Below the pieces are notes generated by a model. That model did no database searches and was not told where the DNA came from. It was given only the letters and a program-made list of their open reading frames with translations. The translations under genes were made by a program, and so were the position numbers. Shown here in pieces: positions 15,526-63,355 of a stretch of 64,000 nucleotides of DNA. Each line of letters opens with the position of its first letter. Within the stretch, counting starts at the first letter, position 1. Where the stretch lies: the NCBI GenBank assembly GCA_950295325.1, contig OX485807.1, positions 52,110,440-52,174,439 on the forward strand, read 5' to 3'. The DNA is from Polytrichum commune (Eukaryota > Streptophyta > Polytrichopsida > Polytrichales > Polytrichaceae).

Positions 15526-15599
15526 AAAACATTATGGTTTTAGTATACCAAAGCGTTTTTTTGTATACTTAACAAAGAGACACCTACCTTCATCAACTA

Positions 15600-19912: not shown

Positions 19913-20109
19913 TGTTCTCTTGGCAGTCTCCATCCCAAGGACTCCTTGTCTACTTGAGGATTTGCACCGTGTGGTGCGATGCGATACGATACGATGCGGG
20001 TAAACTTTGAAATGCGTAGAAAGAACTTTTCGTGAAACATTGGAGTGATAGCCTGCTGTGGTATGCTTTTTGTCTTTCTTGTGTTCAATTTTAGCCATCT
20101 CATGCTATC

Positions 20110-30600: not shown

Positions 30601-31529
30601 AAAAAGCACAGCAACCAGTGCATGCGAAATTTCGTGACCCGATTTTGGGCAGGCCAAAACCCAAAGGCCTCCGTTGGAGTCCACCACAGCATAATAATAT
30701 TTGGTGAACAACAATTACACACGTTTTGCTGCTTCTCAGCATCAACTCATTCACGTCAATGCAAAGTCTTCCAGCCAGCCCTTTTCTTGAGACGAGTAAA
30801 GGAAGCGAGCCTAAAGTCGCTTGCCTCTCTTAAATCGGCACCTTTAGTTTGAGTGGTGTGCGGTAGGGTGGTGGATCTCAGAACAGACACAACATGTTAA
30901 GAGAGAATTGGATGATGTGTTAAAATTCTTTTGTTGATTATTCTAGGTCCAACAGTCAACAAAATTGGGTAGTCAACATATTCGGGAGGATTTATGTGGT
31001 CATTTGAGAAGGATGTATTTTTGGTTGCTTTGATAATAAAATTAAGATTTAAGTATATTCGAATCTATGCATGAATTTTGGACAACTTCAATCGTCAATA
31101 TGATGTACACCACACTGCAAAACTATACAAATATGGTGGTTGGCAAACATGGTATACGAATTATACTCAAAGTTGTGGTTGTTGTGTTGTTGCTTTTGTT
31201 GTTGTAGTTTGATGGTTTTGTTTCCACAACTACACATCCCCTATTATTTTTGGACAAGTGGTTTGTCCAAATATACTTCAATGTCAATTATGACCAGGAT
31301 ATTCACATGAGCTTTGAATAATGAGGAAGATGGCTATGGCTTTAAATTGGATTTGCTATTGTAGTTTAAATAATGTTCAATATCGTAAGTGAAGTGGGCT
31401 AGGTAATTGAAAAAGTAACTACGCAAGACTTCTCTACCTTACGTGATTTTCTTCAAACTCGGTCGACGGAAGCTGCCACTAAATGTTTCATAATATAATC
31501 ATGATGTTGGAGAATTGAAAGTGTTCTAA
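27632..31529. other. Unassigned spacer in arm A'
   Basis: Mirror of 2661-6558. Nothing recognisable as a gene. The two substitutions I noticed between the arms fall here, at 28950 and 30402. Confidence 0.6.
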
Positions 31530-31861
31530 GGGTGAGTTTCCATGTAGGTTGTTTGCCCACCAAATTCTAGTGGGAATAAAGACAAATGTAGATGGAATCT
31601 AGTGGGTTGGTGTTAGTATGTGCCAACCAACTATTGCTATTCAAGAGTTTAATATTCTTATGTGTCAACTAATTTTTACTATTCTAAGTGTTTAGTGGGT
31701 GCATGGAAGTCTAACAACCAAGGCCACGGCCCTCCATCTTCTAGTAGGCCACAAAAAATTGGTTGCTTGGTCGCTTGCTTTTTGTTTATTTACAAGTGAA
31801 CACCTCTAGCCCACTATTGTCTACAATCTAGTGGGCGAGTGGACTACATGGAAACTCACCC
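31530..31861. mobile_element. Tourist-like MITE (mirror copy)
   Basis: Mirror of 2329-2660, with TAA on both sides and GGGTGAGTTTCCATGTAG ends. Confidence 0.85.
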
Positions 31862-31989
31862 TAATTGCAACTATTATAGAACTATCATGTTTGCAAATCT
31901 TTAGAAGTACATGTGATTTTGGAAGTAAGTGTGCACTCATTGCTTTCTATGGCAAGTTATTAAGGGTATAGTAGACACATAACATATAT

Positions 31990-33001
31990 AACACTATATT
32001 CGCTAATTTGAGACATTTTCTTATCTCAAATTAATATGTGGACCACAACAACATGAATTGGCCTGAAACTATATTGTCAACAATCTCAAATATATTATCA
32101 GTTTAGTATCCCCAAATCAGTGGTTAGCTGACATAAGCACATTGGGTAGAGCACTTGAAACCAACTTCACGAAAGAAATCATACACAATGTTGGCTATTA
32201 TTAGCATGTTAAATAAAATATAGATACTACGACCTACAAACCATCGTGCAAAAAAAACATATTTATTTAACCCTACAATTTGGTCCCTAACAAAATAATA
32301 AAATAAAGTTCACATTTGTTGTGAAATATTCTATATGGATATTCATCCAATCCCGATGGAATTGGAGCATTCCTAAGTTCAACCCAAACTCTACCCCTAT
32401 TTTGAGGAGCACACATATGACCAATATGTATCTACTATAGTTACATATGAAACTATAATTATTATGATAACATAATCCTACCAACTTCTCATTCAACGTG
32501 GCATGCTTCTTGTGCGATCCGAGCAAGGTGGTCTTTTGCAAAAGTTATGTACTTTTGAGGGATGGACACTAATCCACTATGATTTTTTCGTGGTATCCAT
32601 GCTATGAAGATGGAATCTGTATCTATCCAAGATGGACTATGCTCAGAATCCACCTTCCATCAAAAGTTATGGTTTGTCTCCCTGCCTCTATGTGTAATGC
32701 CGAATCACATTTTCATTTTGTGTCATCGGTCGGTAGTACTCCACCTAAATTTGTCAAAAATAAGGCCTAGAAGTTGCAAAATTTGGTTTGGACAAAGCTC
32801 TTGCCACCCACATTGGCTTTGCATATGTCTCAACTCCAGGATGCAAAATGAGCATAATATAACCTTTATAACAATCCACTGTAATACGGAATGATGGTGG
32901 GGGCGGTTACTAGCAGGTCCGACGTAATGGTCGTCCACATCAAACTCCTCTCGAACCTCTTCATTTCCCAAAAGGCTAGCCTCCGAAGTTTATACATCGA
33001 C
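31990..33001 (-). mobile_element. Relic of the large transposon family, left part
   Basis: It begins with the terminus AACACTATATTCGCTAATTTG at 31990 and includes the decayed transposase C-terminus at 32488-32971. It is broken at 33005 by the younger element. The other side of the break resumes at 49429. Confidence 0.75.
32488..32971 (-). pseudogene. Decayed transposase C-terminus (mirror copy)
   Basis: Mirror of 1219-1702. In A' the upstream part of the same reading region can be followed on the far side of the inserted element (49429 to about 49520), confirming that the relic was once continuous. Confidence 0.8.
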
Positions 33002-33005
33002 TCAT
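33002..33005. other. Target-site duplication TCAT, left
   Basis: TCAT directly precedes the AACACTATATTCG terminus and is repeated at 49429-49432 directly after the other terminus. Confidence 0.8.
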
Positions 33006-33244
33006 AACACTATATTCGTTAATTGGAGACTTTGGAAAGTCTCAAAATAAATTGGACCCGTAGTTTCGGATGCGAATATTGTGAACGTAGCGAACATGGG
33101 GAACATGGGGAACAATGACAACATAATGTTTTAAAGATCCATATGTGATGAATATATATGTTTCTAAATATAGTAATTATTCAGTTGATAATCAAAACTA
33201 TGCCAACACAATATTCCAATGACACGAAATTGCAAATTAGCATC

Positions 33245-33523
33245 TGCAATATAATTATATAGTTTAGGGTCCACATCCGTAAAAACACAGACATAAAAAA
33301 CATTTGGATTCCACATCCGTAAATCAATGCATCCATGCAATATAATTATATAGTTTAGGGTCCACATCCGTAATAACACAAACATAAAAAACATTTGGAT
33401 TCCACATCCATAAATCAACGCATCCATGCAATATAATTATATAGTTTAGGATCCACATCCGTAAAAACACAAACATAAAAAACATTTGGATTCCACATCC
33501 GTAAATCAATGCATCCATGCAAT
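33245..33523 (-). repeat. 91-bp subterminal tandem repeat with palindrome half-sites
   Basis: Mirror of 667-945. It contains six CCACATCCGTAA-like motifs (one reads CCATAA), each matching one arm of the 22-bp palindrome (TCCGTAAA). It lies 240 bp from the left terminus. Confidence 0.85.
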
Positions 33524-33644
33524 ATAATTGTAATCTATAAAATTGCTATAAAATGTGTCTAATATAGTATTCGACCCCAATGTCATATATTTTATGAAAA
33601 ACCAATACACATTCAAATATCTTTGGTCCAAACCTACGTCAATA

Positions 33645-36600
33645 TCATTCACCATCTTCATCTTCTGCTTCATTTCCATTCTCGACATTGTTTTCTGCAG
33701 CAGCAATACGTGCCAAGTTGTCTTTGGCAAAATCTATATGTTTTTGGGGGATGGTCATTGTTTCAATTTTGGAACCTTTGCGTGGTTTCCAAGCACAAAG
33801 TATGGTATCCGTGTTTATCCATATTGGTTCGTATGCTGAGTCCATTGTCCATTTGAAACCTTTTTTCGTGTCCCACCCTAAATATGTGCGGAGCACATTT
33901 TGATCTTTGGTGCTTGGACGGCAATATTCCACCTCAATTTGACGAAAATTTGGGCTAGTTGGAACAAAATTTGGTGATGACAATGCTTTCACCAACCAAA
34001 TCGGTTTAGGATGTTCCTCATCTCCAGGACGTACGAGGACCATATAACCTTCGTAGCAATCAATAGCCACACGAAATGATGGAGCCGGGCGATTACGAGC
34101 AGGGCCAACATAATGGTCGTCCGCCGCGAACTCTTCACGGACGTCCCCATTGTTGAAGAACATGGCCTCAGATTCCACGATTGTCACTCGGCTTAGTGGC
34201 CAAAAACCTTGTGTCAAACATGATGGTCTATCGTCTTCGGGTGCTAGCAACGCTGAGCGGATGCGATCCCAATACGCAATCAATGGTTCGTGGGTATCCC
34301 GAACACGTCTTGTGATGTCTTCCTCGTACAAATCTTTCCAGTACTCGATGAATCCAGATATACCTTTGATGATTTCTGGTCCATTCCTCATGGGGTTGGG
34401 TTTGCAAGGCTTCGGCTCCCCATCAGGTAGCATACATTTGCCATCTTCGTTTTGGCGCCATACGAGTATCCCTTCCTCTGGGCCCCAATTCGGGGAGGTA
34501 CACAAAACTTTGAATTGCATGGCCGGCAGACCATCATCACGTATATAGAATCGGAATTGTTGAGCCTTGGTATGGCCCACTAAGCGGTCACCTCCCTTAA
34601 GAATGAATGGTTTGATAAACGATTTGAAATCGGGCACTTCTTCAATCAAATGCGGGATGACTGGCACATTATCCAAATCCATGTACGATTTCATGAGAAG
34701 AGGAATTGTGGGAAAATCCTCCTCGTGCAACTTCATACTCCAACGTCCGAATGAAGCGTCAATGTCATCGTGCGTGTGGCCAACCATCAAAAAAGACACA
34801 AACACTTCTTTGAAAATGCCCTTGGCTACGAGCAATGACCAAAAACAAAATACGTATCGACATTTGTTGTCCTTGGCACAATTGTCTAGTTGCACGTGTA
34901 GAGTTGGAGGCAAAGGTTTAACAATAACGGGTTGTTCAGGCGGTTCTTGCAGTGAAGATAGGCAAACCTCCTTCCCCTCTAGCACAGCCTCATAAATCGG
35001 TGTTGTTCCACATCCAACAAAAAGAGCACGAGAGGATGATGTGGGCGGACTCTCAAGATCTCGTAGAAGTTTTGCAAAAGACCCTACGGTATGATTGGCG
35101 TCGCCAGGATAGAAATCCAAGCCATAATGTGCATATTTCACGTCCACATGACCATGTGCGATCATACCTGCATTTAGCCACACAAATCGTATATATGAAT
35201 GAAATTCAAAAATTTCCCCAAGCAAGCAAAAAAATGTACACTTACGGACGTACATCCGTAAATCTTAACAATGAGTATGTGGGCGCGCAAAAAATAAATG
35301 TGAAAACCAACAAACCTGTGACAGATATTGGAAGCTTGAAATATCCATCTGTAGCCTTTATTTTCCGCGCATAACAAGGGCACGCCGTCTTTGTATGGTC
35401 CATTTTGTCATGAATGATTGTCAAAACCTCATTCGGCCTCATTATCGATAATGCGCGATTCTTGTAGTAGTCTTGACGGTGTGCCTCCTGGTTGTTGACA
35501 TGCTCAATGTATTTCAGTTGATGTCGGTTGTGGGACTCAGTCCCAATGGGATGTGCATCTCGAAGGCCTTTATATTTCTGACAAGCAGAACACCTGGCAA
35601 ACTTATCCCCAGGTCTCTTCGTAATGTATTCTGCGAATTGTTGATTCTTGATCACACTCAATTTTGACAACGAAATCGGCCCACATCCAGCCTTTTCGCC
35701 AACTTCATTAACATCCATAAGTATGTTCTTCCATTTTGTCCCTGTAGGCAAAACCATCTGTACAACCTTTTCCCCCGACGGCAGAGTCCGCGTCTTGTGT
35801 GGCATCGCATCTGCCAATGGCATAATGATGGTTGATAGTGTTGCAGCCGCTTGGAGTGTTGCCTCCCTAGGCTTCTTTGTGCCAGAGTTGCCATGGAACC
35901 GAGAACGGCGTCCTTGCATCGAGTAGTTCCGGAACCTATAAAAATTTGCCTTTGAAACTGCATGTATAATGTACCATGCCTTGCAACATATCTCCACATT
36001 TTCCAAGGTTACAACCTTACGACCTTCGACATCAAGGTGCATGTTGCGATGGACTTCAAGTTTCTTTGCAGATCGCATACGAAAGTCCGCGAGCCACATC
36101 TCTTGTCTCAAAGATTTGATCTTGTCACGGGGAAATAGTTGGCAACATCTCTTTGCACAACAATCCTTTGTTGCTACGGACCTAATAGATGCATCTCCCA
36201 ATGTTTGATCTCGACGACGTTGCGTGGGTTCACGAGGCAAACGAAAGGAATCATATTTACGCCGACCTATTCTAGGGCGCGTTGTGGAGAACAAAGCCGA
36301 TTGCATTTGATCAAAACGGCGGGCATGATTCCACAAGCTGACACCATCATGAAGAACACTGCGCAACGACCATCGATGAAGAGAGAATCTCCAACCAGAA
36401 GGCACTTCCAACGGATGTAAGGAATTCAAAATGCACACCCCCACATCTTCTTCCCCCAGGGGATTTGCATCAATACAATCCGTAGGATTCGAGTTCCGAC
36501 AAACACCATCGGCCACGGGGACGCCACATCCATTGACTAGGACGACATCAAGATCAATCCACTGCTCCCGCGAATAACCCTCACATGGTGGAAGGAATTC

Positions 36601-36725
36601 ATCCTCTACATTGGCGACACCAATTGTAGTATCTTGTTCCACGACAACTTCAAACTCGCTATCATAGCTTGACGCTTCCGAAAAAAAATCAACCCCACTA
36701 TCACTGACGTTGGAATCCATGGCCA
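33645..36725 (-). CDS. Transposase-like protein, two coding exons, 975 aa
   Basis: Coding exons are 35316-36720 and 33645-35167; the 148-bp intron (GTTTGTTGG...ATGCAG) joins the frames exactly. The ATG at 36720 is chosen because it lies five bases after a good splice acceptor (TTTCTTGTAG), so the upstream Met at 36780 is probably intronic and the gene has a 5' leader intron. Cysteine motifs (CCAKRCC, CSACQKYK) precede a presumed RNase-H-fold core: acidic residues at about 438/441 (HDKMDH), 563 (QLDNCAKDN) and 602-605 (GHTHDDID). This pattern fits proteins with the plant/fungal DUF7869-type domain and a DDE/D transposase, an inference from motif spacing. The N-terminus and C-terminus are acidic. 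The frame is free of stops, and the last 180 codons are duplicated at 1-545. Confidence 0.8.
35242..35261. repeat. 22-bp palindrome, variant, in the transposase intron
   Basis: TTACGGACGTACATCCGTAA lies inside the 148-bp intron 35168-35315. It differs from the perfect form mainly in the centre. Confidence 0.85.
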
Positions 36726-37700
36726 CTACAAGAAAGCCCAATGAAGAGTATGTCAAAATATCCCATTCAATAAATGTCATGGATAGCCCTAACGCTTGTT
36801 ATTGTCAATGAAACACAATGTGAACAATAGTTGATATCATGGCTTGGAAACAAAGCTAGCATTGGTATACGAACGTGCGTCCGTATACCTCCATGTAACA
36901 ACATTAGCAACGCAAGCACACGCGTAGACGGATACATTTATGTGTTCATAGTCAGCGGAAAGGTGATGACAACCAAAACACCACTGTTTTATGGACGCGC
37001 ATCCGTAAATCGGCTCCTGCACACAGTGCAGTATCATGCTAAACCACAACATAGGTATACGGACACGCGTCCGTAAAAATGCAGTCCTAGACATGGAGGT
37101 TCGGGGAAGCAAGAGCTCCTGGCAACAGGGCCATGTATACGCAGGCCTGACGACTCATGAAATTTGAAGAGGTTATCATACGCACTTCCTACTATGTTCT
37201 ATCAATGTCAAATATTATACTATGACACATAGGGTGATGTAGGCTAAGGGATGCGAGCTCCCAACCCTTCATGACCGTACAACCTCTGTGCAATCCCCTA
37301 CATGGCACATGGTCTACAAAGGTTTCCAGGTTTACGGACGCGCGTCCGTAAACCTCTGTGGACCTCTTTACTAGCCTGAATACGATGTACAACGCGACAA
37401 GGGGTTCACGTTTTACGGACGCGCGTCCGTAAACTTCCATGGCAATATATTCGCATTGTGGTACTCGACACGACACGGTCTGTAGGTGACATACAGACAC
37501 GACACGACACGTGGTGTAGGTGACATACAGACTCGACACAACACGTGGTGTAGGTGACATATGGCACCAAAGGTATGGAGGTTTACGGACGCGCGTCCGT
37601 AAACCTCAACGTACATGAATATTGGATCAAACAAATAAAGGTTCAAAGAACCAATATGATTAAGGTTTACGGACGCGCGTCCGTAAACCTCCGTGATTTG
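36726..37700 (-). promoter_or_regulatory. Presumed leader intron of transposase gene with seven palindromes
   Basis: Upstream of the acceptor at 36726-36727 lie seven palindromes at 36864-36889 (GGTATACGAACG-type arms), 36987-37010, 37056-37078, 37331-37352, 37412-37433, 37582-37603 and 37666-37687. The last four are perfect 22-mers. No donor or leader exon could be fixed, so the region may instead be promoter. A telomere-like TTTAGGG tract follows near 37825. Confidence 0.6.
37331..37687. repeat. Four perfect 22-bp palindromes
   Basis: TTTACGGACGC joined to its reverse complement occurs at 37331, 37412, 37582 and 37666. In three of them the self-complementarity extends outward through the flanks (AGG/CCT, or GAGG/CCTC at 37582). 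Confidence 0.95.
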
Positions 37701-39210
37701 CGGCGTTAAAATCGGAACATTGCACCAGAAAGGATAACTGTCCGAAATAAAAATCCAGCACACTACAAGGATCCGGAGAGTGCAACCCAAATACAAATTC
37801 TCTACCCTAATGGGTTCAGGGCTTGGGGTTTAGGGTATAATAGGTCCATGCAATAGGATCTTTACCTGCACAAAATCTGTAGCAGGAGCACACTACAAGG
37901 GTCCAAGGAGTGCAACCCACAATTGAGATGCAAAAAGAGTCCCGACGGTGGGGGGGTGTCCCCTTAAGTACTGATCGCTTTCCCTTGGATCCGTTTTCCA
38001 ACATAGGATACCAGCCACCAACTATGTCCTATAAATACAAACCTAGCATTACTACATTCCGTGTGCCAGCCTTACAATGGAATGTGTATTCATGTGGACA
38101 ACATGCATAGACCATGAGTCCACATAATGACAAAGAAAAAGGCATCTATGTATTTGTGGTATACAACAAAGTAGATTGGCTAATATTATATGAGCAATAA
38201 ACATTGTTGAGAGGTGGTTTATTGGAGCAATAATATTGGAGTACCTAATATGAAGAGTACATTTTAAAAAACGTAGGCAAAAAATTATACAATCGTGTGA
38301 AAAATCAACCACAACAACAACAATAGTACATGGAGTATAAAAATATCTGATACAGAAACATTGATTACCGTAAGGCCATGATAGTAGCACATCTATTCTC
38401 CTAGGTAACATGGGTTGCATTAAATTCAATATTATCAATTTTCTCTCTAAACCTTAGGGGCCCCTTCCGTACATCAACATTTACTTCAAAAAAACTAATT
38501 ATACTAGCCTTCTTCATGCACTATACGTGAGGAAAAACATATTTTAGTACCTCATGTACATTACCTACATTAATTAATACTCAAACAATACCAATTGTTG
38601 CTCCAAGTAACATTATTACCCTCAACCCTAAACCCTATAACCACCCAAACCTAAACAAACATGTGGACATAGAGATGCAAGCATGGTTAACTGAACAACT
38701 CCTGATACATGTCAAGGCTTAAGTGGAAAGTAATTCAAAACAAGCAAGCAAACAATTATACCAATTGTTGTTCTACGTAATACTATTAACCCATAAAATA
38801 TAATGGACAAAAAGGGAGGGTAGGGTATCCAAATAGTAATAAGGCAACCAATATTAAGTCGGTGACACAAGGGGGATACCCTTAACCCTAAACCCTAAAC
38901 CCTATAAACGACTCCCGACTCATGTCAAGGCTTAAAATTCTCTAAAACAAAACCATAAAGATTTCAAAAGTCAAGCAAATTTATGTTCACAAATTATTCT
39001 TGAAGACATGGTAAGTGGTGAAAAAGTAGGTGACATAGAACAAATATTTATCAAATTGTGAATGGCAATCCGATATGTGGTCTTAATTTGGCTAAGGAAA
39101 AAGGTACTTGGGTTGCATAACCTTACCTTTCATTTTTTTAATCTTTGTTTGCCTGGGTAAAATCCACCCCTTAGAGGCAAGTACAAGATTTAGCCGAGAC
39201 TTGTTATTCT

Positions 39211-39440
39211 TTGATGGGATACAATATGAAAACAATTAAGCCTTCAAAACATTTAAGATCATCAAAGTTATGTTCTAAGTCATATTTATCCATTTGCTTT
39301 AAACCTTTACTTTTGAAGATAGGTTTTGAACATCATATATTGGTATTCTATAATCGAATACTTAACACAACCATACATGTCGCCATGGAAACAAAACTCC
39401 AATATAAACAACAATTTGCTACTACTTATAGGCGATAATA
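39211..39440 (+). repeat. Dispersed repeat shared with arm B
   Basis: It is similar to 15290-15525 (AAACATTTAAGATCAT..., AACAATTTGCT-ACTT...AGGCG). Divergence is substantial, so it is older than the arm duplications. Confidence 0.5.
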
Positions 39441-39989
39441 CAAGCTCATGCCTAGGTTTGGAAGGATTGCATGAATCCTGAAGGTTGTTTAATGGACAAG
39501 AGGGATGTAAATTCAACACCTACCCATTCCTTTTGTTCTAATACAAGCTTAGACCTATGTGCAAAGGGATTGAATTAACCCATAACGTTGTTTAAGATAT
39601 TATAAGCATTTGATCTTAACCCATATTATCTCGATGTTTGGTTTTGTTAATTGTGTTTCAAACATGCTTAATTTAAATATCATTAATAATGATATTCACA
39701 TCAAAGCATCCCAAGTGTCCAACTTCAATAAAGTCCCCAAGTTGCTATTGATAGTATAATTTAGGTTGAAAATTCCCTTTCACAAATTATTGCGATAATT
39801 GAGGGATTCATAAGGGTGTAGGGGTTTAGGGTTAATTGAATTTTTGGCCAATGGGTATATTATTGTCCCAATTGCATTTGAATCCCACCTTTGTGGAAAA
39901 AAAATTATACTTAACTTAATCAAGAAGACATACTTTATATTCAATATTATTACTATTCTCAAAATATAAAGTCCCCTCCATACCTGCTA

Positions 39990-40159
39990 CACTAGAAATG
40001 GTATAATTTAGTTTCACTCATTGTTTGGAGTTACAAAATGCTTTATCTTTTTATTGTTGATGTTATTTAATTGATGCCAATGACATAATATACAATGAAT
40101 ATTTAATATAGCATTCCATAATTCTAAATATTAAGCAATACTACTTATAATATTTAGTG
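39990..40159. mobile_element. CACTA-ended MITE, 170 bp, inside the transposon
   Basis: The left end CACTAGAAATGGTATAATTTAG, continuing TTTCACTCATTGTTTGGAG, matches the left end of the MITE at 15600. The right end is ATATTTAGTG. TA flanks both ends. Confidence 0.55.
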
Positions 40160-40919
40160 TACTAGTAATTTAAAGCCCGCTTACCTTCATATTACAACAA
40201 GTCCACAAAGAAAATCTTACACTTGAGTTACTCAACCTCAACCCATACTTCAGAATTATGTTTACTATTGGGCCTAGATGGTTATTATAATTTGAGCATT
40301 GAGATTCATTTATTTTTGGTCAACAATTGTTTTTGGTATTCGTTTTTGGACTCAAACCACATACAATCCATCCTCTATAAATGTGATGCTCTGGAATATA
40401 ATTTTCCTTACATTTATTGTGAGTTAACATTGTAACAACTATAAAGGGAGCTTTTTGAATGCTTAACAAATTTGATTCATTACAATTATGGAGGGAGAGT
40501 TTTGCAAAATTATCAAATATCAAATATGTGTATCAATCACAATATAACCCATATTAATAATTTGATCACAAAAGTCAAATTTGGTGGCTTTTGCCACTTT
40601 GAAAGGTTGTGACTCAATGTAATGGATGTCATCTCACAATATTGGATGTAGTTCGTAGGTTAACATTTATAAGTGGCAAATTAACAAAGAGGGGAATAAA
40701 TTATTCTTAACATGTAACAAAGTTTACATTCTAGTCAGCAATATGAGAGGAGTACGAATTTGTTAACAAATACAAATATGAGTTAACATGTAGAAGTGTA
40801 ACATTTATCGAGGGTGGACTCTAGCAATCACAAAAAAGACCAATAGACATATGCCACGTAAGGGTTACATGTGGCCTTTGGGTGCGGGGTGATGGGATGT
40901 CTAGGTAAGGAGTGGATGC

Positions 40920-41182
40920 GACGTTTAGGGTTTAGGGTTTCGATACACTCCCTTGCTCTTCGCTCCTTTCGCTCCTTTTTGCTCATTTCGCTCCTTTCGC
41001 TTACTCCCTTTCGCTCCTTTCCTCCTTGCCCACCATCGCTCCTTTGCTCCTCGCCCTTGTTGGTCGCCCTTGCTGCTCCTCCTTCTCCTCCTTATTGGTG
41101 TTTATCCTCTTTCTCCTCCTCCTTGCTCTTCATTTGTTGCTTAGTGTCTTAGTTCCACAAGAGCGCCAGGAGCTCTAGGAAG
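40920..41182 (+). promoter_or_regulatory. Pyrimidine-rich probable promoter/leader of the plus-strand gene
   Basis: A TTTAGGGTTTAGGGTTT tract (telo-box-like) at about 40925 is followed by TTCGCTCC-type CT-rich repeats (40965-41130). This resembles plant core-promoter Y-patches. A possible donor is GGAAG/GTGTTT at 41182. A 93-codon open frame across it is compositionally biased and not convincing. Confidence 0.35.
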
Positions 41183-41682
41183 GTGTTTTTTTCTTTCCCT
41201 CACTCCAAGATGTGTTGTTCCAGGTGCTTATTAGGTGATTTAAGTGTATGTTTTGATGCATAAGAGGAGGATTGTGAGTATTGTGTGAGCATGCAATGTT
41301 TTGTTGTACTCACAATTGCAAGTACCATCAGAAATTGAGTAGTTTTTTGCTTGGAGTCTCATTAGGACATTATTGGAGTAGTTTCAGTTGTTGCAAGGGT
41401 TTTAGGGTTGGAGTATTTTCAGTTGTTTCAGAGTGCTCCTCCCTCCAGTTTGTAATTGTCTTCACTTCACTTCAATTCACTTTGTCCAAGTTCTAAGAAA
41501 TCATATGTTTTGCTTTGTTCACTTCTATCTGATGTCAATGTTCAATCCAGTGCAATCTTTGTAGTAGGGTTTTTTGTGTAGGGTCGATGCATTTTAGGAG
41601 CAACACACAGTTTAGTTGATTCTTGAATGTGCACATTGCATTACCAGAGGTTTCTAACTTCAATTTTATTGTTAATTTGCAG

Positions 41683-41728
41683 TCTGTCCTAGCTGCAGCT
41701 GTGGTTGAGCAGCAAACATTGTACGAAG
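41683..41728 (+). other. Candidate small upstream exon of the plus-strand gene
   Basis: A 46-bp segment is bounded by TTAATTTGCAG and GTAAGTGTTT. It would pair with the acceptor TTTGTAG at 42647, creating an intron that contains the whole eight-palindrome cluster. It may be leader or code for SVLAAAVVEQQTLYE. Confidence 0.4.
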
Positions 41729-41984
41729 GTAAGTGTTTCTAGTACATTGCAAATTGAAATGGAACATTCTTCTTAGTTTGGAGTGTAGAATCTGCTATTG
41801 CAATGCAACACCTGATATATTCTAATTTGGAGTGCAAATCCATGTTGCATTCCAAGTAAAGATGAACATTGCACATGAATGGAATGCAACAAAAAACCTG
41901 TTCCGAAAATTTCGGAGCAATATCCAGAAACACAGTAATTGTGCAAAGTAATTAAATTCAGAGTAATTAAAAAATGGCCTGAAG

Positions 41985-42593
41985 TTTACGGACGCGCATC
42001 TGTAAACTTCAGGGAACCCTGGGAATATGCATCGCACTATGTGTGAACAGTTTACGGACGCACGTCCGTAAATTGTAGATATATTTAAAAAGAACTATTT
42101 AAAAACATGAATGGGAAGTTTACGGACGCACGTCCGTAAACTTGAGATATCTAAGTACACTAAATGTAATACATGATACATGTGGAGAGTTTACGGACGC
42201 GCGTCCGTAAACTAGGCAGAGAAAACTATGAAAATCTCATGTATAATACATGTCATGGGTTTTCAAAAAAAATTCTACAAAATATACAAGTTCTACAGAA
42301 CAAAAACAAACTTATTTTCCAAAAATTTACGGACGTGCGTCCGTAAATTAGGGCTACATAAAATATATTATATTCATGGAATATAAAAATAGAGACTTTT
42401 GGATGATATATGTGCAGAGTTTACGGACGCGCGTCCGTAAACTCTGCACGTATATCATGTATGAGATTTTTTTTTATAAGATATCTCAAGTTTACGGACG
42501 TGCGTCCGTAAACTTGACATGTACTATAACATAATACATAACCACATTCTATAAGAAAGGGTACGCAAAGGTTTACGACCGCGCGTTCGTAAG
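41985..42593. repeat. Cluster of eight 22-bp palindromes
   Basis: Copies start at 41985, 42051, 42119, 42190, 42326, 42420, 42491 and 42572. Several intervals are 66-71 bp or about twice that (136). The one at 42420 extends to a 36-nt perfect palindrome (42413-42448); those at 41985 and 42491 extend through GAAG/CTTC and CAAG/CTTG. The last copy (TTTACGACC...) is degenerate. The cluster ends 55 bp before the acceptor of the first large coding exon. Confidence 0.95.
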
Positions 42594-43951
42594 ATAGGCT
42601 TTGCATCCTTAGACCTTAATACTGACTTGTATATTTTACATTTGTAGATGGAATCTACAAAAAGACCCGCTATTGATATATTCGCAGAGCTTGTCCATCC
42701 TCCGCTTCCGAAAGCCATCAAAGACATAAGCCACAACGACCATTACAAGCCACGCGAAGACATTGTAGATAACTGGACAGTTATTGTAGAAAAAGACGAA
42801 AAGGATATATTTGTCCTTAGATTTGCCTATCAAATAAAAGCAGATATACATGAATCCGAGAAGTGGATGAAGGTTAAAAGCTGGACAGTAGAGTGTGCGG
42901 TAGCCCAAGGTGATTATGTTGTCATTGACCTTGAAAATAAAAATGATAGGATCACATTCATTTTGCACGAGTTGTACCATCCGTTCAACAAAAATGAATG
43001 TGAAAATGCCAGCCCAGATGCGTCTTGTTTTAATTTACAGAATGAATTCCAAGACTATGCATGCAATGCACCCTGGACGAGTAAACGGCTTGGACGTCTC
43101 TTGAACAATGTGACAAGAGTAAATGGGGCATTACTAGAAGCCAAGAAAGGAAAGGAGAAAAAACCAGTTCCTGAACGACCTAAACGTGTTCCTAAACACG
43201 TGCCGGAAGCCTCCAGACCCTCACAGAGTGGGGCATCAAGAAGGAGCAAGCAGGCCAGCAAACGCTCTCACTCACAGATGGAGTCTTCAGGGCTAACAGA
43301 GGGTCCAGATGTGAGCTCTACTCTTACTGTCGCACCACTCCTGAAGAAAGGACAACGCCCTGACGCCGAACTTTCCACAAAGATTTTCCAAGAGTTCGAC
43401 GAGAAGACAAAGGGCTGCTGGCCACTTGGAAGATATTTCACGTTTGATGTGGATGTCTACAAATGCCACAAGGGCACGGAGAGCATGAATACTCGTGCCA
43501 AAGAAGAGACCGGGGTGTGGTGGCAAATGAATAACATTATGAACAACCCCAAATTTGATAGGCAAACCATATGTGTGACACCAAAGGATCCTGTGGTTGA
43601 AGTCACAGCGCAAAACTGGCCAATTCTCAAAGATGGAGAGTTCTACATAGTCGACGGCCAACATAGTGTGATGGCTGCAAAAGCTCTCCTAGAGGACGAT
43701 GAGTGAAAGAGCCCTTTGAAAGAGACAATCCGATATTGGAAGGCATTCGTCGTCCATTTCAAAGACTCGAACCAGCTCATCGCAATATCTGCCTTCATGA
43801 ACCAAGGGAATAAAGTGAGGCAGTTCGAGGCTTCATGGGCTGCCAACATCGTGGCTGGAAGGACCTTGTGGGTGGAGCACGATTGTCCCCCAAAAGAGAG
43901 GGAGAATGCAGTCATCAAGAATCCCAAATGGCAGGTATGTCTCTGTATAAT

Positions 43952-43973
43952 TTTACGGACGCGCGTCCGTAAA
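43952..43973. repeat. 22-bp palindrome in intron 43935-44051
   Basis: Perfect TTTACGGACGC palindrome, 18 bp after the donor GTATGT in an intron of only 117 bp. Confidence 0.95.
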
Positions 43974-45417
43974 CTTCTTCCCATCTCCTTCCAATTCTTT
44001 AATTCCTTCAATTTAAACTCTGCCGATTTCTTGTAATACATGGCATTGCAGACATTCAGCAATGCCATCTTGACAAAGTTCTCCAGCATTGACTTGAAGA
44101 CAAGCGGCATGAAGACGGTGCAGGAGCTGAAGGGGGAACTTAAGCTCATCACCGCCACAGAAAAGACATGGGCAATTTGGTTGCGCCTATTCGATGCCTA
44201 CAACAACGGAGACCTTATCAATCCGGATGCAGAAAACACGTACAAGAGCGACTCGAAGGTTAAGGTGCCACCTATCCTGAGAGAGTTCTTTCGTCCCCTC
44301 CAAAGATTGCTCGACTCCGAACTGTACAGAGCGGCACAACACATCCTATTGGAGACTCCGAGGAGGACACTGCCCTACCCCAAAATCTTCCTGAAGCGGC
44401 CGAAGCACATGAAGCCTTCCACGTACCACATTAAGGAATGGTGCGAATACAGGAAGAAGAAGACCATGGCTATAAGGAAGATAAACAAGCTACTGCCCTC
44501 CCACAACCTCACTAATACAGATGGGGAGATAATGTGGGAAAACTGGAGGACGCTCAAGGAGGAGTATCACATCAATGGGGTCTCCATGCGATCATTGATA
44601 AGAGGCGCATCTCCCTTCCTAGCCCAAAGATCTAGGAGGAACGAGAAGAAAGGGTCTATCGACGAAAGAGAGACGGCGTTGTACGTCCATTTCCTTGACA
44701 AAAAAAAGAAAGAAAAATTCGGAGGGGTCGCAAGATTCTGCACTGTTACAACGGCCTTGAAGTTTGGCACATGGGACACACATGCTTCAAGAGCCTCTGT
44801 GAGAGATGACCCCCGGGGTTGTCCGTTCGCACTATTTGATTTCCGTGCATTTCCCGGATCTTGGAGACAAAACGCTAGCGGGACCGCTTTCTATGACAAC
44901 TTCTTCAAGGCCTTCAAGAGCTATCGGTCGCCTGCCCTCTTCGAGCCAAATGTGTGGCTCTGGATCGTAGATCAAGAGAGGTCTGCATCGGTCGTCCAGC
45001 TTTACACATCGACGATGAACCTCCAATACGATCTTCACCACAGCACATACATCCCCGCGAAGACGGAAGGGATCAGTGTTATTGAAGAGGCAAGAGGGGC
45101 GAAGCAGGTCGGGGCTTTGGCACTTTATTTCTTGACACACAAGTCTTCACCAAGTGGGCGGATGCCTATCAAAGCGCAGAACGTGTTCAAGAAAATATAC
45201 TCGTTGCCACCACCACACCCCAAGGAGCTTGTCGCGGAGACTATGTATGCAATCTACCCGGCGTACGAGCTCCGAATGGATTTTTATATTGGAGTCTTGA
45301 AGGCTGTGACTGTGATGAGTGAAACAGTTTACAACGTCTTCGGAGGCACCAAATTTGTTTATGCGGCATTGGTAAGTACTTGTATGCACCTCTTTCCATG
45401 GTTCATCTGAATTGAAA

Positions 45418-45487
45418 TTTACGGCCGCGCGTCCGTAACATTGGCCACACAAATATGCAGTGTAAATTTACGGCCGCGCGTCCGTAA
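45418..45487. repeat. Two palindromes in intron 45372-45568
   Basis: Copies at 45418-45439 and 45466-45487 share the variant TTTACGGCCGCGCGTCCGT; the same one-base change in both suggests local duplication. Confidence 0.92.
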
Positions 45488-46774
45488 ATTGCAGTGCTTC
45501 ATGATTATATTTGTCCTCATACTTGCTTGCAACAATGGAATGACTATAATTTCCTTGTTTTGGTGCAGATGCTTGGGTTGCAGGTAAATTCGTTTGTGGA
45601 GGCTCGCGACATGGATGAGGCGAATACTCATAGGGTTCTTGCCTCGAAAATGGATATCGAAGACATCATCGATATCCTTACCCCCCATCATGTGGTGCCT
45701 CTTGCCTCAAGAGAAGAGGAAACTCCTGCGACGGAGTGGGACAGTGACGGAGACCAAGAGCCCGTCTCCCCAAGAGAGCAGCCAGCCAGACAAGATCACG
45801 TGCCCGGCCTTGTTCGTGATCCTGTTCATCCACATTAATTTGTCTTGGGCGAAGACCGCATGGATACAGAGGGGGCGCATGAAGACTTCACTCCAATAAG
45901 GGTCCATCCTACCCCTATTTCCTCTCCCTTTGGGACTCCCACTTCTCGAGTTGGGTTTCCTTCCACTGCGGGTCCATCGCGTGCTGCTGGGCTTATGGCA
46001 GAGAAGGATGTGGACGTTGCAACAGAAGCCGGATGCACAGCCTCATCTGGAGGGGGCTCTGAACAGGCAGAGCTACCACCTGTGGAGGGTAGAGATGTGC
46101 TGGAGTTGATTTTGAGGCCGGATATCGCCTCATACCGTGAGAGTCGTCGACAGAGGAAGAAGACTCCTTACAACGAGTACCCTGAAGGCGCCGTCTTGGA
46201 ACTCTCCGATGAAGACGAGGATGAGGTTAGGATGTACAATGCCCTCTCTGCGTTGCCTTCTGAACCTGGCAAGGTGAAGAAAGAGCCGATGTCTGTGGCC
46301 GAATTGGACGAGAAATTGGAGAAGAGAATGAAGGAAGAGCTTGACCAACGGCTTCGAGAAGCTAACGAGGAGCACGCCAAAAAGATGGCCGCCATCCAAG
46401 CTGAGATGGAGGAGGCTAGGTTGGAGTCTGCTCGAAGGCACGCCGATCTCATGGCTCAAAATCAACAATTCTTGGCCCAGAGCCAACAATTTATGAGCCT
46501 CATGCAGAGCTTGCAAGCAAGACCCCCAGTAATGTATGCAGCTCCCGAAGCCGGCATGTCGATGCCTCCCACTCTCATGCGGCCTCCGTCTAGTAGCCAT
46601 ACGGTGTACATACCAGAGCATACCTATCCAGCCCCCGCCTTGTATGTCCCGCCCTCTCCCCAGGTTGCCGCCAACCCAGAGCCCTCCTCTCATACCGTAC
46701 GAGAGGAGGAGAGACCTGCACGTTATACGGCAGGTGCTCACGAGAAAGGCGTCATTGAAGACATCACAACCATT

Positions 46775-46855
46775 GGCAGCCAAGAAGATGAAGATATGCG
46801 GGGCAACCAAGAAGATGAACATATGCGGGGCAGCCAAGAAGATGAACATATGCGG
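46775..46855 (+). repeat. Three 27-bp coding repeats (GSQEDEHMR)
   Basis: Nine-residue acidic units GSQEDEDMR, GNQEDEHMR and GSQEDEHMR lie in tandem in exon 3 of the accessory gene, with a fourth unit starting and breaking off. Typical of a disordered linker. Confidence 0.85.
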
Positions 46856-46953
46856 GGCAGCCAAGACACCACAGATGAAGATCAACCTCATGTCGATACC
46901 CAGGGGTCGCAAGCGGCTGGAGGCGCCTTGGTGGTGGAGGATAGCATGCACAA

Positions 46954-46975
46954 TTTTGCGGACGCGCGTCCGGAA
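46954..46975. repeat. Palindrome inside coding sequence
   Basis: TTTTGCGGACGCGCGTCCGGAA differs from the consensus in the outer bases and is read as FADARPEP in frame. It is the only copy falling within an inferred exon. Confidence 0.85.
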
Positions 46976-47066
46976 CCTGTGCCCACGATGGGGCCTGGTG
47001 AGGGAGGCACTGCTGGCGAGGGCCTCTCCGCTGAAGAGGTAATCCACCTTTGAGCTTGCCTCCCAC

Positions 47067-47088
47067 GTTACGGACGCGCGTCCGAAAC
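47067..47088. repeat. Palindrome in intron 47039-47378
   Basis: GTTACGGACGCGCGTCCGAAAC lies 28 bp after the donor GTAATC. Confidence 0.88.
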
Positions 47089-48261
47089 TTCCTTGTCTGC
47101 CAACTTCGTGGCGTGTGCATATTGTCGAGTTCGATGCTCGACTTCGCCCGGCGGGTGGATGCAATTTTGCCAGCATAGATTCAATTAGTTTTAGGGGAGA
47201 CCTTTTGTGACAATGTAAATTATTCGCGAAATGTATTAAACCAATCACATTAATACAAATTTTTTGAACTGCGTATTCGTATTCTTTTTGCCTTATACTT
47301 GTTTGTTGAGTTTGTGCATGCTTGTCAATTGGTTTTCATGGGTAGTACCATTCACCTAGATAGTATTTTCCATCACAGGGTCCGTCGGAGATATGTCGCA
47401 ACCCCGTTGAAATACCAAGCCGGCCCATGAGGAAACCGTTCATAATATTTGACCTCAATGGGGTGCTTTGTCATTCCATGCATATCTCCAATAGTGCGTC
47501 GAAGGGTCCCTTCCGTAGTCCACAAGACATGGATTACGGCGGACAGTTCGATACTCTCATTAACAAGAAGGTTGTACGGGCCCGGCCGGGGTTGAGGTGC
47601 TTCCTTCGTGATGTCCTTGGCTTGGCCCATGTCATCATTTGGAGCTCTATGCTCATGGACAACACGAAGGCCATCGTCGGTTTCCTTTTCCGAGAACTCG
47701 CAATGCCATGCTTGCTTCTCGGTCAAGAACACTGCGATGACCTTTATGACCGTAATGGCAACATTGTACCCAAGGTCGGAGGAGGCCGAGGGCCTCAATT
47801 CCTAAAGGTACTGAGGAAGTACCTTTGGGTGGGCGTCCCTATGTTGGAGGGGGTGCCCCACGGTTGTTGGCCCACCCCGGAGAACACGCTCCTCATTGAC
47901 GACAGCCCGGCAAAGAGTATTCTCAATCCCCCGGGCAGTTGCATATTCCCGGATCCTTGGGAGAGTGATAGAAATGACAACTTTCTAGAGAATGAACTAG
48001 GACCCTACATTAGGAGGCTTGCCTATCACCCCGGAAGTGTCCCGGATTTTGTCCTCTCCAACCCCATTGGCAATAGGCCTCTAGGTCCAAGAGATGAGGA
48101 ATTTAGGAGGTTGTACGGCTATGCCAAACTCAATAAATTAATATGAGAACTGCTTTTTGGGTTTGTACTTGGACTCTCCATGTTTATATCTAACATTTCT
48201 CCCCGTATTTTGTAAATGTATTTTTGTGTCTTAGTTGCCTCACCAAGCATCCCAAAGTCTC

Positions 48262-49118
48262 GTCCATGGCATGTGTGCATCTAAACCGGGCCCCAGCTCC
48301 CCTTCCATCGGTGTGACCGACATTTCAATGCCTTCACTATTTCAATTTTCAGCCGTCGATGTTGCCTCTGCTGTTGATTACTCCAAAGACTCGGGGTTTG
48401 AAGACGGAGTTGTCGATAGCCCTCCTCCAAAGGTTGCAAAACTCAATTACGCTCCATCTCCATCTCCATCTCCCTCCGCAATGAGAAGCACGTTCGAAAC
48501 CCGCGGTCGACCAGACGCCTTTGTATGGATGAACCCCAAATTGGTGTCCCGGCGTTTACGAGCGTCCCTGTTGTGCTTGTGGCCCCCCTCGATGTCGCAG
48601 AAGCTCAAACCACCGCCCCGCAGGCCAAGGTGCCCAATTATTGGCATTCTCAAGTTTTTCCTTCATGATTTCCGTGCATTAGTGCATTTCATATTCTTGG
48701 GTTTTTCGGACTTCCATCCGTAACTTATACTAACCCACGTCATTATATGTATTTATGGTCATTGTTTCAGACCCCAATACACATGAATGTGGGCCGTTCA
48801 TCCTCGACTTCGTCATTGGATAGGCGAACACTGAAGACTGCTTCTTGCGAGTCTGATCGTTGTTTGGCCCTACGGAAGAGTGCAAGACGTTCGGTTTCCC
48901 AAACGCATTCGTATTCCACTTATTCGGAAGGGGGTCGGCAAATATGGGCAAATGGCACATATTCGGGGTCGACAAATAAACAAGGTTACAGCCGCGGACC
49001 CGAGATCTTTAGAGCCATGGAGGCCATGAAAGCAAAAGAACGTGAAACGGCCGTAAATGCTAATAATAGTATTGCAAAAGCAAAAGTAGTGAGTCGTAAT
49101 CATGATCCGAACGTATAG
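48262..49118 (+). pseudogene. Third transposon gene, unrecognised, frameshifted
   Basis: A Pro/Ser-rich frame (48262 to about 48520: DYSKDSGFEDGVVDSPPPKV) must slip one base near 48522 to continue as MDEPQIGVPAFTSVPVVLVA up to the donor AAG/GTGCCC at 48629. The next exon, 48771-49118, follows the acceptor TTGTTTCAG and encodes a Ser/Arg-rich tail ending NHDPNV. The intron contains a degenerate palindrome. No domain recognised. Confidence 0.45.
48703..48724. repeat. Degenerate palindrome in intron 48630-48770
   Basis: TTTTCGGACTTCCATCCGTAAC keeps the outer arms (CGGAC, TCCGTAA) but the centre has diverged. Confidence 0.6.
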
Positions 49119-49428
49119 GCTATATTAACATACATGTAGTTGTGGAATTATGTTTCTAGGACTTTCGCCTAATATTGGATATTCCACTTGCATTTTGTAC
49201 TTCAACCCCTATTCAATAAATATGATATTGATTTTCCATATGCAAATGTTTTCATATATCCCATTTTCTTATTTTTAATGTGTAGTTCCATGCATTTGAG
49301 TCTCTTATTTGTTTCCAAAATTGGGAACATAGCATATTTTTAGTGTTTTCCTTCCTACAAATGTGAAAGCCACGTCCTTAAATAGTCTCAAAATCAACAA
49401 AAAGTCTCCAATTACCGAATATAGTGTT

Positions 49429-49432
49429 TCAT
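49429..49432. other. Target-site duplication TCAT, right
   Basis: It matches 33002-33005. Beyond it, reading the minus strand, TTTTGGCCACAAACATGA continues the relic transposase (compare TTTTTGGCCACTAAGC of the intact gene). Confidence 0.8.
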
Positions 49433-49520
49433 GTTTGTGGCCAAAATTCATGCCTCAAAGTAAGGGGGGTATCTTGGTGAAGGTTTGCCAAGGCGCCACA
49501 AACACGTGTTCAATACTATA
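49429..49520 (-). pseudogene. Relic transposase, part upstream of the insertion
   Basis: The minus strand aligns, with gaps, to the intact gene around its FWPLSRVTIV codons. Joined to 33001 downward it restores one continuous relic. Similarity fades after about 90 bp. Confidence 0.6.
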
Positions 49521-52500
49521 TCCAACTCCCGTAACGACACCAACACAATCCACCAACATCCGCTACCCTCAAAGTCTCCCAATATAATTTTACGTAAATA
49601 CGTCATTGTGGTTACTACATCGATGCATACAAAAAGTGTTTGTAGTTTGATTTTGACACAAAATACTTTGCATGGATTTTTAGAGGCAACTTATTTGCGA
49701 AGGCAACCTAACTGCACATATCACTATGCACATTAGCCTTAATATGTTGGGGGTTGCTATTTCATGAACGCCTTGACATGAGCATGCTCATGTCAAACCC
49801 CTCCGTTATAGGGGTTATAGGGTTTTGACCCTCGATTATAAGGCCCTGAGGATCTACGTGCATAGGTGCCCACCAAAAGAAAATTAGCAACCCTAAACAA
49901 AAAATATTTATACATACAAATTTCGGTGTTCAAAAGTTGGCTTTACGAGCAGTTTGAAGCATAATAGGCAAAGTACTCATTTTAATAAGTGAAATATTTC
50001 AAAAGAAAGCTCATACTATGAGGAGCATGAATGCAAAGGCATCTATTAAACAACTCAAAAACCCAACACCTACAAAACTAAGGCATGCAAACATCCTCTA
50101 TGTCCATAATCTCCTCCACGTCTTCACTAAATTTGTGACGTTTGTGTTTACTTGGGGGAAAGCCTACTTTGACACATTGTTGTCAAATTTTCAATCAAGT
50201 CTAGCTCATGCTCATACTCATGCTCATGTCCTAGCTTCACTTATATCTTAGCCTCGTATTTGTAATTTATATGCACATATGCCATGGGCAGGCCACACTG
50301 CAAGGGATCAAGCTAATACTCTACTCTAACCCAGTGTGAATAGGGGCCAAGGTGTCGGCCAAGGTGTGGATAGAGCCCAGGACCTGTGGATGCCACGCCG
50401 GGTACACCCGCGCTCTTTTCCGAAACCCGCGATAGAGCTTTTCGGCTATGGCGAAGGAGGAGCTGCTTTGCAGCTCACGACGTTGGCATCGCATGTATCA
50501 GAGGTTTGTATTGAAAAAAATAGGAAAATTTTGATAAAATATTGGTTTCTTAAAGGTTAAAAAAGTGTCTGGGGTGTAAATTGTGCTGGATTCTGGGGAA
50601 ATTTGAAGGTTTCTTTGTGTGATAGCTTGGGAGGTTTTTGAGTGGAGTACGGAGTCTGTCTGTACCAGAGGTGTGAATTCAAAAATTATTGAACTTTTGT
50701 TGAACTTTTTGATGGTCCCGGTGCAAAATTTTTCTGTTACTGTATGATATTGAGCAATTTTCTTCGTATGATAACTCTGCAGGTTTTTGTGTGGACTACA
50801 GAGATGTGCATTTAAGAAGTGGTTGAAATTTTTGATAAAGTTTTGGATGTTTCAAGATGTAAATTGCAGTTGGATTGTGAGTTGTGCTGAATTCTAAGAA
50901 ATTTTGAGGATACCTTCGTGTGAATTCTTCGGAGGGTTTTCCTGTGTGGACCAATGACCGGGGAGATCCGGCAGCTAGTTGTAAGTTAGCTGAGTGAAAT
51001 TGCAAAATTACCGATTTTTTTTGGGAGATTTCGGCCGTATAACTGAGTTAAATATGAAGAGTATAGGAAATCAACCGACCAATATGAGATAATGTAGGAA
51101 ATTTAGCCCCTCAGGCTCAGAAAATGGCTGAAATGAGTTGGGTCTCCTATGGGTATGGGCGGATATTGAATGAGGGAGGTTCTCAACCGTGTAGGTCACA
51201 AGAAACTTAATGATGCTTTTGCTTCATTATTGCATTTCATTGTTGATGGCTAGCGTTTAGAATGTATTATGAGTGTGTCTATGGAAGATCTTTGTGGTGA
51301 TCTTGATAATGTACTAATGGAAGCCATAGCTTTATGAAGGAACTCTACAAAGTTTAGGTGGTTGTTTTCACATCCACAAAGATACCTTTCAGGGCGTTTT
51401 CCTCTTAAAGGTGAAGATGATATTGTTGATTTTGACTCTAACAGTTGGTGAATTTCATTTTTGTATATAGTATGGTATGTTAGGTTACTCTTTTATCATG
51501 TTGTGGCCTCAAATCTAATATGAGGTTTTAAGATCTAGGTATGATAGAAGAGTTTATCCATGGCCATCAACCGGTTGAAGGCTTATTTTAGGTTCAAATC
51601 CTGCTACAGATAAATTGTTGATCATTCTTGTTGGATGTTGATATCATTACATATTATTGTTGTATGTTGATATGTTCTTTGGACATTGTTGTTGAATGGT
51701 GTATGTTGTTTGTAGATATAATTGGAAAACCAACTTACTTATCAATGCCCGAGTTTTTGGCCGGTTGTCATTACAATGAAGAAGAAATTAACCGGCACTT
51801 GAAAAAAAATATAGGATATTGGCCGATCCAAATTTATGACAACAAGTTTGCAACCGATCAAATCCTAAAAAAACCGGTAGAAATTATGAAGGGACTGATT
51901 TTAGCTGGTTGAGCTCAAAAATCTCCCGAACCCTGGTGTGGACTACAGAGGCTGTTCAAGTGAGGAAGAGTGGCCATGGCTACTCTCTCTCTCACAACTT
52001 CGGTTGTAGTAGGGAGAGTTGTTGAGCGGTCAGGTATGGCGTCACCTTACCCCTCGGAATTTCGTAGTGGTGAATGTGCATGAGATGGGTCGTGAAATTT
52101 GTGAAGTAAAACAAATTGCAATGTAGCACTGGCCCGACGATGTCAAATAGCTCAATGTGGAGCCAGGGAGTGAGAGAATATCAAATAGTTTCGGAAGTCT
52201 GAGGGATGATGTTGCATAATTTCCAAACCATTGAAATTTGAGATAAGCTCCTGTTGTGAGAGTTGGTAATTCATGCTCCCAATGAGAGCTCTTACACTAA
52301 AATTGTCTTTGCCTTGTGGAGCTTGTTGAAGGTTGATCCACCTTGAATTTTAGGTTTTAGATTTTATTTTATTTGACTCAAGTAGAAGAAGGAGGTGGGG
52401 CACTGAGAAGTGGGGGATGGGGAAGGCATGGAGCAGGCCAAACTGTGGATTGGGTGCTTGTGGTTTTGGGCGACGATTTCTGGTCCCAATCTCTGGTGTC

Positions 52501-63281: not shown

Positions 63282-63355
63282 TAGTTGATGAAGGTAGGTG
63301 TCTCTTTGTTAAGTATACAAAAAAACGCTTTGGTATACTAAAACCATAATGTTTT

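Follow-up and report, generated by a model that had tools for sequence, protein, structure and literature searches.

The En/Spm (CACTA) element of maize carries an accessory protein, TnpA, and repeated short binding sites that lie within the element, near its ends. Here we describe an element of 16,423 bp from the moss Polytrichum commune, found in a stretch of 64,000 nucleotides (GCA_950295325.1, contig OX485807.1, positions 52,110,440 to 52,174,439; hereafter the window), that resembles this arrangement in combining an accessory protein, which we call AB, with repeated short sites that AB would bind. In contrast to En/Spm, the sites occur throughout the element, and its target-site duplications (TSDs) measure 4 bp. 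We read it as a Sola-like cut-and-paste transposon in which a dimer of AB would recognise a 22-bp palindrome and so keep the genes of the element on, a reading to which we give roughly even chances.

How transposons evade host silencing without activating everything else is a live question, and the described plant case, VANC, belongs to Mutator-like elements (MULEs) of Arabidopsis, whereas the present case lies outside Mutator. According to the portions of these reports consulted, VANDALs are MULEs without terminal inverted repeats (TIRs) (PMC13317346), and binding of VANC to a 9-base word in noncoding regions accompanies loss of methylation (PMC5735166, PMC10398659); the word of VANC21, YAGTATTAY, is non-palindromic and arrayed in one orientation. 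The moss element is like them, as far as those portions go, in having a short, dense word in upstream regions and introns, partly in tandem, and in that the word differs between related families along with the element-encoded protein, which holds for the two lineages described below, although two database relatives of AB, P0129 and P0130, diverge while keeping the word of lineage 1. It differs in having TIRs and a palindromic word, in an AB without match to a known family, and in a transposase gene, T, whose second exon matches no Mutator-type transposase but only DUF7869 at E values up to 0.1. The titles and abstract openings of the literature retrieved on Sola and on moss transposons describe no such word, and a search on anti-silencing returned VANDAL work, reviews and unrelated papers.

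The excerpts at hand attribute to Sola a DDD transposase, TSDs of 4 bp, TIRs of 11-1124 bp and a size of mostly 2-9 kb, in some cases more than 15 kb, and place it in the moss Physcomitrella among others (PMC10741241); Sola2 likewise has 4-bp TSDs, and accessory genes (Fanzor1) are known there as well (PMC3627910). The moss element adds AB, a gene with a NIF domain, a gene D and a dense palindromic word, none of which appears in those descriptions.

A palindromic word in an element with four genes

The palindromic word and the accessory genes are the more unusual feature of this element. It spans 33006-49428 of the window, and ten further full elements, a to j, were read from the 407.8-Mb assembly (64 contigs), throughout except for a 474-bp gap in d. 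These 11 elements are 14.6-20.1 kb long and have an identical gene order, with T, AB and D matched in all 11 and the NIF gene in 10. With up to three mismatches allowed, the palindrome, TTTACGGACGCGCGTCCGTAAA, is found at 18 places in the window, against none in shuffled windows. The half-site TTACGGA[CT]G is counted 36 times in the element and five times in the copy of its left part at 1-1183, the rest of the window being free of it. When sites are counted with up to four mismatches to either of the two words described below, the centre being ignored, the 11 elements hold 274 palindromes, or 21-30 each. Matches by tblastn cover 42-53% of each element yet hold just 14 of these 274, by position seven in AB intron 1 and seven in coding sequence; nearly all palindromes lie outside coding sequence. 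Genome-wide, the lineage-1 word (up to one mismatch) occurs at 1641 places and the lineage-2 word (exact) at 2909, against none for the reversed controls; the places known individually are those listed, and our claims about location are confined to these. The exact palindrome was not found in viral contigs.

All 11 elements have sites in front of T, in front of AB and in each of the two AB introns. In the window, seven palindromes form a cluster upstream of T (36866-37687) and eight a cluster upstream of AB (41985-42593), both counted at up to four mismatches, while others lie in the T intron (35241-35262, four mismatches), in AB intron 1 (43952-43973) and, as a pair, in AB intron 2 (45418-45488). 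One palindrome falls inside the AB coding sequence (46955-46976, three mismatches), where relatives have FTDARP, VTDARP or VTNARS, another directly past the AB stop codon (47067-47088, three mismatches), and a degenerate one with six mismatches in the presumed intron of D (48703-48724). A 91-bp tandem repeat near the left end (33245-33529) contains single half-sites. Spacings of 95-97 bp and 135 bp are regular in some elements of lineage 1. Elsewhere in the genome, a dense array of lineage-2 palindromes with short, regular spacing and mostly GG or CC centres (G000:C1:640864-646099) is unlike the elements that we read.

The gene T (33645-36780, minus strand) encodes 995 amino acids in two exons (36780-35316 and 35167-33645) around a single intron of 148 bp (35168-35315), and its reading frame is open in the window copy. 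Exon 2 matches the Pfam family DUF7869 (E 4e-39) and nothing else at E up to 0.1; with the limit raised to 10, the relatives P0010 and P0057 match DUF7869 as well, P0057 with an additional chance-level match to YAF2_RYBP. In an alignment of 67 sequences, D425, D465 and D467 (P0010 numbering) are invariant and D302 is nearly so, and E451 and E507 are also nearly invariant, which leaves the third acidic residue to be chosen among several candidates. These conserved acidic residues, together with the presence of T in every full copy, point to T as the transposase. Ahead of the first conserved Asp motif, T also has a conserved CxxC and, after it, a conserved His, which together could be a zinc-binding site. 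Among 120 listed relatives of T, those with a species name come from Physcomitrium and Ceratodon, and 54 stretches of viral contigs fit a T peptide pattern, none of which encodes a T relative.

AB begins on the plus strand downstream of a 5.9-kb spacer after T and was modelled from its relatives P0121-P0131 as a gene of about 1,363 codons (42648-47053; exons 42648-43934, 44052-45371 and 45569-47053), with two in-frame stops in the window copy. A model in which AB ended at 45838 and its coiled-coil part was spliced to the NIF gene was dropped, as the relatives show one AB gene ending at 47053. The relative P0121 has weak matches only, to DUF6551 (E 0.03), DUF1015 (E 0.043) and the ParB-like phrog_1033 (E 0.096), and P0131 has a weak match to HAUS-augmin3 (E 0.003) that stays below the family cut-off. 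DUF6551 is itself ParB-like, and the sequence around the junction of AB exons 2 and 3 may, judged by eye, resemble motif I of DNA methyltransferases. Comparison of AB with the PDB gave nothing convincing, and no match to AB was seen in phages or plasmids. Downstream follow an open reading frame whose product has a phosphatase domain of the NIF/FCP1 type (47364-48146, plus strand) and gene D (48271-49119, plus strand), tentatively modelled with exons 48271-48543 and 48771-49119. The NIF motif reads DLNGVL in eight of 10 copies; in active phosphatases of this kind the third position of the motif is Asp.

The ratio of nonsynonymous to synonymous divergence (dN/dS), taken from six within-lineage pairs per gene, is 0.23-0.63 for T, 0.15-0.49 for AB, 0.19-0.59 for NIF and 0.45-1.08 for D. 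In the more distant of these pairs (win-a, win-g and b-h, win being the window element), it is 0.23-0.27 for T, 0.15-0.17 for AB and 0.19-0.21 for NIF. These three genes therefore look constrained, and D hardly so within lineages. Between lineages the ratio for D is 0.19-0.20, with dS near saturation.

Two lineages with two words

The 11 elements fall into lineage 1 (the window element, a, b, c, d, g, h and j), with the word TTTACGGACG-NN-CGTCCGTAAA, and lineage 2 (e, f and i), with the word TTTACGAACG-NN-CGTTCGTAAA. At positions 7 and 16, lineage 2 has A/T at 85 of 85 sites, and the 189 sites of lineage 1 have G/C in 156 cases, A/T in 11 and a mixture in 22. The change between lineages hits both half-sites together, the central two bases vary, and the word is symmetrical, which suggests that it is read by a dimer. 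The termini are nearly identical between the lineages. Nonsynonymous divergence (dN) between the lineages, measured on the pair win-e, rises from 0.14 in T through 0.31 in NIF and 0.34 in D to 0.52 in AB. AB is thus the most changed, and T and the ends are little changed, which argues against the word being an end-binding site of the transposase. Taken together, this suggests that an element-encoded dimer and its site are co-evolving, as a private pair of protein and word for self-recognition. That a single genome contains both lineages, near-identical at their ends and different in their words and AB proteins, amounts to a natural swap experiment for such recognition.

Four further loci either fit this pairing of word and protein or have no bearing on it. 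A/T stands at positions 7 and 16 in 7 of 7, 6 of 6 and 9 of 9 sites at L036, L037 and L034, and the first two match the lineage-2 relative P0131 best; L035 showed neither a palindrome nor AB. L034 (G000:C1:21542704-21550561), a deletion derivative of 7.6 kb, has T matches, part of NIF, D and its nine lineage-2 palindromes, without a match to AB. Two 10-kb stretches were picked by the word alone, away from the listed termini, and both hold T and AB, with the likeness of AB expected for the word: at L038, which has the lineage-2 word, AB is 42-52% like that of the window, with 43-51% for e, f and i over the same parts, and at L039, which has the lineage-1 word, it is 72-77% like it. Palindromes occur in front of T, in front of AB and within AB intron 1 at both loci, and no terminus falls inside either stretch.

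Relatives of AB from other sources, seen as protein only, bear on the word as well. A scan of 131 proteins for the peptides encoded by the three frames of the word, at up to one mismatch, returned eight matches (four of the FTDARP type, four of LRTRVR and none for the third frame), all within P0122-P0131, where shuffles lead one to expect 0.03, 0.03 and 0.02; the matches are not independent, because the AB relatives are related proteins. P0131, which groups with the AB of lineage 2 (70-73%), has VTNARS where lineage-1-like relatives have DARP or GARP, as the lineage-2 word would encode.

Conservation of the word was judged against its surroundings in an alignment of flanks only. Sites with core identity above flank identity outnumber those below in 10 of 10 comparisons, and mean identity is higher for cores than for flanks in seven of the 10; in the two flank alignments inspected, from among those to a, c, g and h, some cores are off register by one or two bases. 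The observed/expected ratio of CpG in the spacer without palindromes is 0.44 in the window element, 0.45 in a, 0.45 in g and 0.63 in f, and the CpG-rich cores persist there.

What the palindrome may do

Our results lead us to propose that T would carry out cut-and-paste transposition and that AB would bind the 22-bp palindrome as a symmetrical dimer, the palindromes kept in upstream regions and introns being its docking sites. The binding of DNA by AB, its dimerisation and its regulatory effect are inferred from the pattern of sites and divergence. Bound AB would keep the element's genes on, most likely by countering host silencing in a VANC-like manner, a role suggested by analogy; simple transcriptional activation is a possible alternative. 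A bolder reading, which we entertain only tentatively, is that plant transposons have evolved sequence-specific anti-silencing a second time and independently, here in a Sola-like element whose AB, possibly ParB-like, would sit on parS-like palindromes in upstream regions and introns and protect its own lineage and not the sister lineage.

Several observations weigh against the proposal of an AB dimer on the palindrome. AB has no significant match to any known family. Stops within matched stretches, which number none in 10 of 10 elements for NIF and none in four of 11 for T, number at least one in 11 of 11 for AB, though some of these counts are intron read-through, which also gives the open T frame of the window a score of 1. 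Divergence between the lineages is not confined to AB: NIF and D have diverged too, and so have stretches within the N-terminal half of T (62-75% identical in places, against 84-87% in the C-terminal half). The switch that separates the lineages amounts, in essence, to a single evolutionary event. A few sites of the lineage-2 type are retained in lineage 1, and the T intron, which has a site in eight of eight lineage-1 elements, has none in the three of lineage 2. P0129 and P0130 are 33-38% like lineage-1 AB over the part compared and yet have the lineage-1 form of the word, which shows that the word can stay as it is while AB diverges. Mean identity is lower for cores than for flanks in win-c (0.825 versus 0.841), win-g (0.841 versus 0.848) and win-h (0.673 versus 0.852), and flank alignment to a, c, g or h succeeded for just 9-12 of the 22 sites of the window element. 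Finally, among distinct sites with at most two mismatches, near-identical flanks having been dropped, pairing reaches at least two bases past the core at 12 of 34 sites in lineage 1 and six of 24 in lineage 2; a dimer site does not need such pairing and a hairpin does, which makes a hairpin role possible.

The sites of the lineage-2 type in lineage-1 elements lie near the start of T or AB (for example, a 10445, c 10567 and g 3908) and may be relics.

The palindrome might instead be an accessory binding site of the transposase itself, similar to a subterminal site, that serves the transposition complex and has no regulatory role. We regard this as unlikely. It would account for the single half-sites near the left end of eight of eight lineage-1 elements and for the palindromes upstream of T, and it is favoured by the differences between lineages in parts of the N-terminal half of T; however, T as a whole has changed less than AB, NIF and D, the termini are near-identical while the word has changed nearly throughout, the sites lie kilobases inside the element and in introns, and lineage 2 lacks single half-sites of the two forms scanned.

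An equally improbable explanation is that the palindromes fold into functional hairpins, either as RNA or as extruded DNA, with a role in splicing or structure, and that base pairing maintains their symmetry. The difference at positions 7 and 16 is compensatory, as this would predict, flank pairing exceeds that in all 4000 permutations in both lineages, and RNA folding is stronger than in shuffles at 42400-42462 (z -10.8), 41969-42022 (z -4.9) and AB intron 1 (z -2.2). Folding of the T intron, on the other hand, equals that of shuffles (z -0.02), the sites cluster upstream of genes, and the pattern is one of two set words around a variable 2-bp centre, not of numerous covarying stems.

That the palindromes are functionless repeats spread passively by tandem duplication and gene conversion is the least probable of these explanations and quite unlikely, for although tandem expansion is evident from the regular spacings within some elements of lineage 1, one word is common to scattered sites in separate introns and upstream regions, its CpG-rich cores persist in a CpG-poor spacer (0.44 in the window element), sites with cores above flanks are in the majority in all 10 flank-aligned comparisons, and peptides from two frames of the word recur in AB relatives.

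Ends, superfamily and surroundings

The element was first noticed in a reading of the window's letters alone (the original prediction), as a transposon of about 16.4 kb with inverted ends of about 28 bp, inserted between two copies of TCAT into a transposase gene of its own family. Its TIRs, at 33006-33033 (plus strand, transposase end) and 49401-49428 (minus strand), are 28 bp long, 96% complementary and nearly unchanged among the 11 aligned elements, and they start with AACACTATATTCG; TCAT stands at 33002-33005 and 49429-49432. The size, ends and duplication proposed at the outset are thereby confirmed, and only the right boundary, placed at 49520, overshoots by about 90 bp. Matches to the terminus number five in the window and none in shuffled windows, two of the five lying within a duplicated arm (1160-2199). 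The left 1,183 bp of the element are found again at 1-1183, 100% identical, inside an inverted duplication of 10.5 kb; this copy is part of the duplication and no independent insertion.

The insertion has split a decayed host element, whose left part (31990-33005) has its own terminus at 31990 and a transposase remnant at 33001-32492 (minus strand), and whose remnant continues on the right at 49429-49584 (minus strand). The database protein P0004, which shares 65% identity with the inner transposase, spans the junction: its residues 275-325 match the right flank (49584-49432) at 75%, and its residues 327-494 match the left flank (33001-32492) at 75-79%. The latter match falls in three pieces and two frames, so the host remnant is frame-shifted; it also carries in-frame stops. 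The single codon missing between the two halves of P0004 is exactly what one copy of the TSD provides, with no gap across the junction, and the ends and the 4-bp duplication are therefore set by an independent protein. The host's match to P0004 ends at 49584, and no right end of the host element was found in the window at up to three mismatches. Host and insert are only 68% alike across about 461 aligned bases, and the host therefore represents another subfamily, so that the idea of an insertion into the element's own family holds to the extent that a related transposase gene was hit.

Across the genome, the terminus pattern at up to two mismatches has 1063 forward and 1064 reverse matches, against 0 and 0 for the reversed control, counts that may be lower bounds because of repeats; the further copies sought for these termini thus exist. 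The listed places include 13 facing pairs 7-21 kb apart, and with the window 14 were read. Perfect 4-bp TSDs, no two the same, flank 12 of the 14 (TCAT, CACT, TTGT, TAAA, CCTT, ATCT, CGAT, GTAT, TTAT, ATGT, AGAA and AAGG), in agreement with the predicted length. In one of the remaining pairs, the 7.6-kb deletion derivative, the TSD agrees at three of four bases, and in the other, which may join two different copies, it has no match.

The original prediction says nothing of the palindrome or the accessory genes. Its view that termini, duplication size and protein match no superfamily it could name is probably wrong. The TSDs, TIRs within the described range, lengths of 14.6-20.1 kb and occurrence of relatives in moss agree with Sola as the available excerpts describe it, and the conserved Asp residues of T are compatible with a DDD transposase; because of this agreement, rather than through transposase homology, the element probably belongs to Sola. 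A DDE/D superfamily other than Sola, or one not yet described, seems unlikely, albeit less so than the rival roles considered for the palindrome: no profile ties T to a named transposase, and our literature search found no paper on DUF7869, but the 4-bp TSDs, the size, the TIR length and the Physcomitrium relatives all fit the Sola excerpts. The transposase profile A2 found nothing convincing in the PDB, and the parts seen of PMC11071193, PMC9587614, PMC10294476 and PMC4455052 contain nothing that decides Sola membership. CACTA elements, described in the excerpt as having 3-bp TSDs and CACTA/CACTG ends (PMC10741241), and with them CMC, are ruled out by the 4-bp TSD and by the ends, which are not of the CACTA...TAGTG kind, CACTA sitting 2 bp inside; moreover, P0010 and P0057 do not match a CACTA family in Pfam at E up to 10.

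The window contains two inverted duplications, 1-10504 with 23686-34189 (10.5 kb) and 14881-19913 with 58968-64000 (at least 5.0 kb), both 100% identical, with identity falling abruptly to about 90% at the inner edges; a duplication of recent date, gene conversion or an error of assembly would explain them. Genes resembling those for dirigent proteins and phenylalanine ammonia-lyase form a cluster in inverted copies (8418-8960, 25230-25772, 16789-19005 and 59876-62092). One copy of each matches Pfam Dirigent and Lyase_aromatic, and the Lyase_aromatic genes are those that we take to be PAL. A fragment of a DDE_1 transposase, presumably of the pogo/Tigger type, lies in both arms of a duplication (6780-7643, minus strand, and 26547-27410, plus strand).

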